DNA from: Saccharibacter floricola DSM 15669
GTDB taxonomy: Bacteria; Pseudomonadota; Alphaproteobacteria; Acetobacterales; Acetobacteraceae
Direction: 5' to 3'
DNA length: 64,000 nt
NCBI RefSeq assembly: GCF_000378165.1
Contig: NZ_KB899343.1
Location: 1 to 64,000, forward strand
The translations under genes and the position numbers were made by a program. Under the pieces are notes generated by a model, which saw nothing but the letters and a program-made list of their open reading frames with translations, made no database searches and had not been told where the DNA came from. Positions 55,752-56,924 of this stretch are shown here, piece after piece (position 1 is the stretch's first letter; every line of letters starts with the position of its first letter).

Positions 55752-55758
55752 CTGACGA

Positions 55759-55808
55759 CAGCAACACGTCTCTTATGTGGCTTTATCAACATAAGAGACG
55801 TGTTGCTG
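55759..55808. terminator. 20-bp perfect inverted repeat between convergent glmM and ctrA-like gene
   Basis: The arms 55759-55778 and 55789-55808 are perfectly complementary over 20 bases, with a 10-base loop GGCTTTATCA. It starts eight bases after the glmM stop and ends 14 bases before the regulator's stop codon. No T tract directly follows either way, so it may work as a bidirectional terminator or an mRNA 3'-end stabiliser. Confidence 0.65.
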
Positions 55809-55821
55809 TAAGAGAACGTTT

Positions 55822-56562
55822 TTAGATCGCTTCACGTAAGTTAGACGCCGTATGTGCCGATGATACTGGTGCTGAGGGAGCAGGCTGTTCTGGTTGTTCA
55901 GACAAAATATAGCCACGACCCCATACGGTTGTGATCATATGACCAGCTCCGAAACGTTGGAGCTTTCGTCTTAGCTTACAGATGAAAACATCAATGATTT
56001 TCATTTCAGGCTCATCAATCCCTCCATAAAGATGGTTCAGGAAGGTATCCTTGGTAAGGATAGCACCACGGCGAACGATCAAAAGTTCCATAATGGCGTA
56101 TTCTTTACTGGTTAGATGTAAGAACTGTCCATCAATGCTGATCATTCGACTGCTGAGATCAAGTTCAAGTGGGCCAACTTTGATACGTGGTTCAGCAAAG
56201 CCATGGGCGCGACGCATGAGAGCCTGAACACGAGCAAGAAGCTCATCATTATCGTAAGGCTTAATCACATAATCATCAGCACCTGCAGCAAAGGCCATGA
56301 CTTTAGCTTGAGGCTGCATGAGTGTGGAGATGACCATAATTGGTGTTGTGATTTGCGCGCGTCTTATTTGACGAATAATGTCATGACCTTCCATATCCTC
56401 AAGAGACATTTCAGTAATGAGGAGGTCATAATCATAGTATTTTAGCATGTTGATCGTATCACTTCCTGAAGTCGCATGATCGACTGTATAGGAAGCATTC
56501 CGCAACATTCTAATAAGAGGGGACGAGATAAAAAGGTCACTTTCCGCGATTAAGACACGCAT
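55822..56562 (-). CDS. ctrA: CtrA-like OmpR/PhoB-family response regulator with Glu at the phospho-acceptor site
   Basis: 246 residues from the ATG at 56562, with AGGAG nine bases upstream; 50 more in-frame codons upstream are not convincing. The C-terminal winged helix (about 130-225) is almost identical in pattern to CtrA: LTSKEYAIMELL, FLNHLYGG, DEPEMKIIDVFICKLRRKL and VWGRGY. The receiver keeps Ser79 and Lys101 (IKPY) but has Glu51 (LLITEMSLEDM) where CtrA has Asp51, and Ser8 for one acidic-pocket Asp (IAESD). CtrA is the cell-cycle master regulator of alphaproteobacteria. Whether this is the sole CtrA or a paralogue cannot be seen here. The C-terminus has an extra Pro/Ala/Ser tail. Confidence 0.88.
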   Translation of the reverse strand: MRVLIAESDLFISSPLIRMLRNASYTVDHATSGSDTINMLKYYDYDLLITEMSLEDMEGHDIIRQIRRAQITTPIMVISTLMQPQAKVMAFAAGADDYVIKPYDNDELLARVQALMRRAHGFAEPRIKVGPLELDLSSRMISIDGQFLHLTSKEYAIMELLIVRRGAILTKDTFLNHLYGGIDEPEMKIIDVFICKLRRKLQRFGAGHMITTVWGRGYILSEQPEQPAPSAPVSSAHTASNLREAI

Positions 56563-56924
56563 AGGTTTTAGCTCCTGTGGTGGAAATACAATTAGAAGCA
56601 GTATCAGCAATAAATGCAACCATAGATTGTTTTTTGTGAATTTTACAACCAGACAGTGTGTTAGTACCACGGTCAATCGCGCATATGATGGAACAAAAAA
56701 GTAGGTAAACATTTAGCTGAAATGCTGATTCATTATAAAAACAATAAAGGTAAAAATAACGTATAAGTAAAAATGGGATAACGTTTCTTGTAGGAATTTT
56801 ATTTCAAAATTTATTTTAAATACCATCAAATTTAGTGAAATAAGGCTATTAAAGAACGTTTATAAAAAACCTCGCCCGAATCGAGACGGGCGAGGGAATA
56901 AGGTTATAGGAAAGTTTCTTCACC
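56563..56924. other. AT-rich regulatory gap upstream of the ctrA-like gene
   Basis: 362 bases. It is clearly more AT-rich than its surroundings (especially 56730-56870). It holds two GANTC sites, the target of CcrM methylation, at 56727-56731 and 56878-56882 (the second is in the terminator loop). A GANTC in the promoter is a known feature of Caulobacter ctrA. I see no convincing CtrA box (TTAA-N7-TTAA). Confidence 0.55.
56862..56895 (-). terminator. Intrinsic terminator of the 142-residue gene
   Basis: The 9-bp stem CCTCGCCCG/CGGGCGAGG (56870-56878 with 56887-56895) is followed on the minus strand by TTTTTTATAAA. It insulates the ctrA-like gene from upstream transcription. Confidence 0.9.

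Follow-up and report, generated by a model that had tools for sequence, protein, structure and literature searches.

CtrA is the standard example of a cell cycle controlled through phosphorylation. The 64,000-nucleotide stretch of Saccharibacter floricola DSM 15669 analysed here (hereafter "the window") carries a ctrA gene in which the codon for the phospho-acceptor Asp51 reads as glutamate. This raises the question of what kind of regulator such a CtrA is, and how it might be controlled.

The window encodes a CtrA orthologue without Asp51 and Asp8

The gene and its main features are as follows.

55822-56562, minus strand: ctrA orthologue, 246 amino acids, receiver plus winged-helix DNA-binding domain (from the open reading frame, Pfam, the CtrA NCBIfam model and the tree)
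56572-56576, minus strand: Shine-Dalgarno-like AGGAG ahead of the ctrA ATG, read from the sequence
56206-56562, minus strand: receiver domain, residues 1-119, (beta-alpha)5 fold intact in the predicted structure
55900-56187, minus strand: DNA-binding domain, about residues 126-221, OmpR-type, with a conserved recognition region
56539-56541, minus strand: codon of Ser8, replacing the metal-binding Asp8
56410-56412, minus strand: codon GAA (ttc on the plus strand) of Glu51, replacing the phospho-acceptor Asp51
56326-56328, minus strand: codon of Ser79, a retained switch residue (Ser in 62 and Thr in 2 of the 64 distinct rows of the Glu51 clade described below)
56260-56262, minus strand: codon of Lys101, the retained basic switch residue (Lys in 47, Arg in 16 and Leu in 1 of the same 64 rows)

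The reading frame starts at the ATG at 56562-56560, the one that agrees with relatives, and ends at 55822. Both domains score above their Pfam cut-offs, and CtrA is the best NCBIfam family for the protein at 288 bits, the next family reaching 163 bits. The cut-off of the CtrA model, 350 bits, is not reached; as the name of the model (RespRegCtrARhodob) suggests that it was built for Rhodobacter-type CtrA, we do not hold this against orthology. In a tree with four CtrA-like paralogues as outgroup, the protein clusters with CtrA and apart from these paralogues.

An earlier note, made from the letters of this DNA alone, had proposed that Asp51 is changed to Glu, that one acidic-pocket Asp is now Ser8, and that Ser79 and Lys101 remain. 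With the Asp51 relatives as the reference for the canonical state, all of this was confirmed: the minus-strand codon at 56410-56412 is GAA, residues 7-9 are E-S-D where the Asp51 relatives have E-D-D, and comparison with relatives shows both switch residues in place. A sequencing error in a single genome was ruled out, Glu51 and Ser8 being present in both congeners, Saccharibacter sp. EH611 (CtrA 96% identical) and Saccharibacter sp. 17.LH.SD, and Glu51 across most of a large clade. The protein therefore lacks the phospho-acceptor and an intact metal-binding acidic pair, the residues by which a phosphorelay regulator is recognised. A pseudo-receiver is defined by the loss of at least one of five conserved residues, and the aspartate-less subset by the loss of the Asp itself (accessible part of PMC12632262); the window CtrA, without Asp51 and Asp8, falls under both definitions as given there.

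The predicted structure (mean pLDDT 91, pTM 0.75) is confident inside the domains. The receiver model superposes at 1.1 Å over 118 columns on 4qpj_C, a CtrA receiver solved with its phosphotransferase, and the full-length model at 2.1 Å on DNA-bound PmrA and at 2.8-2.9 Å on DNA-bound CosR (one chain each from two entries). Many other full-length matches, other CosR chains among them, superpose poorly, and the relative domain orientation in the model is therefore not to be relied on.

The phosphorelay is absent from the Saccharibacter genome

The genome assembly is a draft of 42 contigs with a completeness of 100. All 16 receiver and all ten HATPase candidates were scored. Eleven receiver-domain matches were obtained, none of them inside a kinase reading frame: CtrA, two CheY-like proteins, CheB, NtrX, five OmpR-type regulators and one degenerate CtrA-like paralogue. 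The two single-domain receivers are encoded within the chemotaxis cluster and, from their sequence and neighbours, are read as CheY. Of the ten HATPase matches, five are kinases that each adjoin a regulator (three HisKA kinases, one ChvG-like and one NtrY-like), and the other five are CheA, GyrB, ParE, MutL and Hsp90. The names CheY, CheB, CheA, NtrX, NtrY, ChvG, GyrB and ParE were assigned from sequence and neighbouring genes. ChpT has no match in this genome, and no hybrid, CckA-type kinase occurs among its receiver and HATPase matches. A CckA profile scores no higher than 69 bits in this genome, with the NtrY/NtrX pair, whereas its top scores in five relatives are 340-390 bits. Other Acetobacteraceae have cckA directly 3' of flhB in 13 of 19 loci; here, flhB (G000:C12:50165-51256) has no adjoining kinase, and what reads as a flagellar hook protein comes next. 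Thus, the pairing of ChpT and CckA in one genome, the mark of a phosphorelay, is not found in this one.

A second canonical CtrA, with Asp51, was looked for throughout the genome and not found. If one did the cell-cycle work, the window gene could be a specialised paralogue, and a CtrA-like paralogue does exist in the flagellar cluster, just upstream of genes read as fliL and fliM (G000:C12:7435-8274; L036, L081). Its receiver, however, is more degenerate than that of the window CtrA: the first half has decayed, by eye there is no Asp at 51, and the Pfam match covers 60-110 only and stays below the cut-off. The remaining matched regulators are 24-34% identical to the window CtrA. We regard this alternative as extremely improbable. 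Proteins related to the flagellar-cluster paralogue are also present in other Acetobacteraceae (L315, L318, L319). The earlier note's proposal that the CckA-ChpT relay would no longer control this CtrA, an unusual case if it is the only one, is supported to this extent: the genome-wide search for a second ctrA, cckA and chpT returned one CtrA, neither ChpT nor a CckA-type hybrid kinase, and a single paralogue that also lacks the acceptor.

Residue 51 and ChpT across the Acetobacteraceae

Residue 51 was determined in 139 genomes out of 397 in the family; these were not a random draw but consisted mostly of the best matches together with 65 matching genomes from a chosen set of 80. In the other 15 of these 80 (G031, G117 and 13 more) the search for CtrA returned nothing at E 1e-42, which may reflect loss of the gene or too great a divergence. 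Exclusion of four genomes with a missing or cut receiver (G034, G064, G088, G280) and of two represented by paralogues (G006, G091) left 133 genomes from 59 genera, with Asp at position 51 in 47, Glu in 64 and another residue in 22.

ChpT was found in 33 of the 47 Asp51 genomes and in none of the 86 without Asp51 (Fisher p=2e-20, a value that ignores kinship). ChpT was also scored as absent where its match had an E value of 1e-4 to 1e-3, which applied to ten genomes (G003, G011, G029, G131, G192, G223, G231, G362, G389 and the dropped G091). A phylogenetic pair test of ChpT against Asp51 yielded 6 independent pairs (median p=1), too few to decide. A ChpT match is missing from 14 of the 47 Asp51 genomes as well, which indicates that loss of ChpT does not force a change at residue 51. 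Every residue-51 change in this sample occurs where no ChpT was found.

CckA gave no such clean split. With three candidates scored per genome, best E values ranged from 2.5e-64 to 1.6e-185 in ChpT-bearing Asp51 genomes and reached 6.8e-82 in genomes without Asp51; the absence of CckA is accordingly less firm beyond the window's genus. One hybrid kinase, L253, was dropped as a CckA after its sequence was read; L243, L246 and L252 were read as CckA and kept out of the CckA alignment.

The alignment with many Acetobacteraceae CtrA proteins thus shows Glu51 recurring in a large clade and Asp51 as the state of relatives. This qualifies the earlier description of the locus as an unusual rewiring: this CtrA is the only one found and the relay is absent, but the state is clade-wide and no one-off.

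The CtrA tree suggests successive stages of receiver decay

A tree was computed from CtrA alone by a quick method (138 rows, LG+G4, several long branches, column 51 included); ten truncated, paralogous or duplicate loci were left out, and the paralogues were restored as outgroup. One clade of 65 rows (SH-aLRT 96) contains 57 sequences with Glu51, 4 with Asp and 4 with Ala. Its members include Saccharibacter, Bombella, Asaia, Swaminathania, Tanticharoenia, Brytella, Acidomonas, Gluconobacter, Neokomagataea and others. Glu51 is found in both Gluconobacter and Bombella, and Ala51 in three Bombella or Parasaccharibacter records; G068, inside the clade, combines Ala51 with Leu101. Seven of the 64 Glu rows lie outside, and over the whole tree Glu must have been gained or lost 9 times, so that it also arose or was lost elsewhere (g31, g41, g82). 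Further lineages without ChpT have Arg, Ser, His, Thr, Asn or Ala at residue 51. Taken with Ala51 in 4 of the 65 clade rows, this means that Glu is not indispensable.

Four clade sequences (L101-L103, L106) have E-D-D together with Glu51, which fits a loss of Asp51 ahead of Asp8 there. At the far end lie the CtrA proteins of g69 and g97 (L297-L300, L304-L305, L307-L309, L311-L313), with Arg51, Ala79 and Asp, Ser or Asn at 101 and a strongly conserved recognition region; judged by these residues, they are complete pseudo-receiver CtrA proteins. The living relatives could thus represent stages, from ChpT gone with Asp51 kept, through Glu51 with Asp8 and then the loss of both aspartates, to the later dropping of Glu. 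We propose this order tentatively, and jointly with the reading of a fixed D51E discussed below.

In some genomes the ctrA receiver is missing, cut or out of frame relative to the DNA-binding part (L290/L208, from Bombella dulcis, L289, L316 and L317, the last additionally at a contig end), which is either draft error or real loss.

Selection on the receiver is uneven

Receiver dN/dS was usable for nine pairs out of ten, one being saturated, and ranged from 0 to 0.17. Seven of the nine usable pairs are without Asp51; among them, one Ala51 pair gave 0.056 and one Arg51 pair 0.030. Purifying selection therefore acts on the receiver in all nine usable pairs, most of which have no acceptor.

Rates in the Glu51 clade (64 distinct rows) were then compared with those in ChpT-bearing Asp51 genera (31 rows), relative to the DNA-binding domain. 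In receivers of this family, alpha1 and the loops near the pocket generally serve the docking of kinases and ChpT, and alpha4-beta5-alpha5 forms the dimer face. The relative rate rose 10.7-fold at residues 7-9 and at 51, 3.9-fold at residues 52-58, 3.1-fold at 80-83 and 101-104, and 2.5-fold in alpha1. It was 1.6 to 2.9 in beta1, alpha2, beta3, alpha3 and beta4, and 0.8 in beta2. On the dimer face it was 1.1 in alpha4, 0.7 at 93-96, 0.9 in beta5 (0.7-1.1 over 84-100) and 1.6 in alpha5, and in the DNA-recognition region 0.7. The docking and pocket face differs from the dimer face with p=8e-6 (p=1e-4 without the pocket residues) and from the rest of the receiver with p=8e-4. Relaxation is thus uneven, being greatest at the pocket and the kinase-docking face and absent from the dimer face, apart from the 1.6 of alpha5, and from the DNA-recognition region.

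Site 51 itself has an intermediate rate in the clade, with 37% of receiver sites slower, and is acidic in 61 of 65 rows. Among the 64 distinct rows, Ser or Thr79 is present in 64 and Lys or Arg101 in 63, and Asp8 has been lost in 60; Asp46 and Asp56 are invariant. Changes of the pseudo-receiver type comprise a missing Pro at D+4 (residue 55), an altered T+1 (residue 80) and Arg for Lys at 101, all of which are among those listed in the accessible sections of a recent review (PMC12632262).

Promoter sites and surrounding DNA

Two further features flank the gene.

56615-56634, minus strand: upstream block AAAAACAATCTATGGTTGCA, conserved across three Saccharibacter genomes, with similar blocks in three related genera (g33, g62, g71)
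55758-55809, no strand assigned: perfect 21-nucleotide inverted repeat in the gap between glmM and ctrA, which run towards each other; putative terminator

Many other Glu51 genera have stretches resembling CAACC-TTAGG-TAGTAAC close to the ctrA start in place of the AAAAACAATCTATGGTTGCA block. The inverted repeat is probably a terminator common to glmM and ctrA.

Exact CtrA boxes (TTAA-N7-TTAA) number 0 in the window against 0.44 by chance; as fewer than one is expected, their absence says little. Intergenic sites with one mismatch show no enrichment on the flagellar contig (1 against 4.9 in shuffles). Exact KTAAC-N6-TYAAC sites within 200 bases before ctrA occur in 7 of 18 Glu51 genera, 0 of 35 Asp51 genera and 1 of 6 others (0.1 in shuffles), counted on one genome per genus and with a pattern partly derived from these same promoters; two of the seven fit the published R. 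capsulatus form GTAAC-N6-TTAAC. No CtrA-box-like site precedes ctrA in the window's genus, so the promoter pattern says nothing for the window itself.

GANTC is the target of CcrM. GANTC sites before ctrA are not conserved in the window's genus, and the transcriptional control suggested earlier is, in its CcrM-dependent form, not borne out there. Over the whole window GANTC is under-represented, with 89 seen against 140 expected from tetranucleotides (the highest-order Markov model) or 244 from order 1; another expectation, 242, may not be comparable with the count, the palindromic motif being listed on one strand.

The stretch 56220-56640 (receiver half of ctrA plus leader) is 97-100% identical to Saccharibacter sp. 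EH611, and the surrounding 16 kb average 94%. Between the two ctrA genes, dS is 0.04 in the receiver half and 0.47 in the DNA-binding half. This high identity may reflect a recombination tract or extra constraint.

Comparison with known systems

The window CtrA resembles canonical alphaproteobacterial CtrA in domain layout, recognition region, receiver fold (as in 4qpj_C) and orthology by tree, but it is without Asp51 and Asp8, in a genome without ChpT or a hybrid kinase. It carries the same substitution, at the same residue, as the laboratory D51E alleles of Caulobacter and R. capsulatus. Those alleles belong to relay-bearing species (PMC6363796 and PMC12186491, as excerpted), whereas the Glu51 described here is native, clade-wide, accompanied by the loss of Asp8 and found where the relay is absent. 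In R. capsulatus, Asp51Glu serves as the CtrA phosphomimetic and bound the ctrA promoter weakly, the wild type not at all; the unphosphorylatable D51A protein is functional too, and unphosphorylated CtrA is active at some promoters (PMC6363796, in the passages seen). HP1043, CosR and ChxR, aspartate-less or atypical members of the OmpR family, share the OmpR/PhoB fold and, in the aspartate-less kind, the missing acceptor (PMC12632262, available portion). At the level of family features they are set apart from the window protein, which is derived from CtrA, retains Ser79 and Lys101 and has Asp51 relatives within its own family.

Degraded relays have been reported before. In Rhodospirillales, relay members and DivJ-PleC-DivK are missing (PMC2877005, 2010), and chpT, cckA and divL are present in only 27-36% of genomes (PMC8116508, 2021), according to the portions of the two papers available. 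Unlike the present case, neither of these portions reports Glu51 or a change in the receiver: "D51" is absent from the main text of the former and "phosphorylation site" from that of the latter. The main text of PMC13214618 makes no mention of CtrA.

A pseudo-receiver CtrA and its alternatives

We consider it likely that the sole CtrA of this genome is a pseudo-receiver regulator that arose as follows. The lineage would have lost ChpT and CckA-type input, and the acceptor Asp51 would have become Glu in the ancestor of a large clade of acetic acid bacteria, most of which then lost the metal-binding Asp8. The protein would still fold, dimerise through alpha4-beta5-alpha5 and bind DNA without phosphorylation; within the Glu51 clade, Glu51, together with Ser79 and Lys or Arg101, would be the likely source of the on-state, and the amount of CtrA made and degraded, or a partner, would set its activity. 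With the acceptor lost and the upstream relay missing, CtrA here probably works permanently switched on.

Whether Glu51 itself supplies the active state is the point at which readings diverge. It plausibly does: the clade conserves an acid at 51 together with Ser or Thr at 79 and a base at 101, although most of its members have lost the metal site, and this combination is the one that a built-in mimic would require. In its strongest form, this reading has a D51E fixed after loss of the phosphorelay, CtrA permanently on and the clade running on a native phosphomimetic controlled by amount alone, to which we give somewhat less than an even chance. The Glu51 described in the earlier note is real; its being a phosphomimetic is one reading only, since some Bombella-type genomes and G068 have Ala at this position, two other genera have Arg, and their DNA-binding domains are nevertheless conserved. 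These Ala51 and Arg51 relatives indicate that the family can manage without an acidic mimic. A rival reading, also with somewhat less than an even chance, is that the receiver was released from its old job, Glu51 being inherited and near-neutral, and that it persists as a dimerisation module, with dimerisation and DNA binding independent of Glu51. Ala51, Arg51, Asn51, His51 and Thr51 in ChpT-less relatives, purifying selection in one Ala51 and one Arg51 pair, and the middling rate of site 51 all point that way. So do published findings, in the parts accessible: unphosphorylated R. capsulatus CtrA shows strong binding at the gafA promoter, and gene transfer rose twofold with D51A (PMC6363796); aspartate-less receivers most often have Glu at this position, although in some cases a role for it has been disproved (PMC12632262). 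Against such a release, the parts that read the mimic persist in the clade (acid at 51, Ser/Thr79, Lys/Arg101, in the proportions given above) and one part needed for phosphotransfer, Asp8, goes.

Alternatively, the pseudo-receiver could have become a switch of another kind, in which a small molecule or a protein partner controls CtrA by binding the altered pocket or the alpha1 face. Purifying selection on a receiver that cannot be phosphorylated and the concentration of change on one face are consistent with this, and pseudo-receivers have a precedent for ligand binding in ShkA and c-di-GMP (PMC7010744, as far as excerpted); the altered face, however, is variable within the clade and has no settled new consensus, and we think this unlikely. 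Phosphorylation control maintained by another residue or another kinase would draw on the invariant Asp46 and Asp56 and on the five histidine kinases that remain besides CheA. Asp8, however, is gone, and each remaining kinase adjoins another regulator or is CheA, so that we rate this as very unlikely; Asp56 in particular was ruled out as a new acceptor, because the Asp51 relatives have it too (LPDM).

The preferred reading, a pseudo-receiver CtrA, joins two things already known, missing relay genes in Rhodospirillales and aspartate-less receivers with Glu, to one for which we found no description in the open-access literature searched, most subscription papers lying outside that scope: a native Glu51 receiver change in the CtrA of acetic acid bacteria. 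As a single family still contains the ancestral Asp51 form alongside a number of later stages, the path from receiver to pseudo-receiver can be followed by comparison. A group that includes the culturable and industrial Gluconobacter keeps CtrA under purifying selection without its phosphorylation switch, which opens the question of the role of a CtrA that has no off state.
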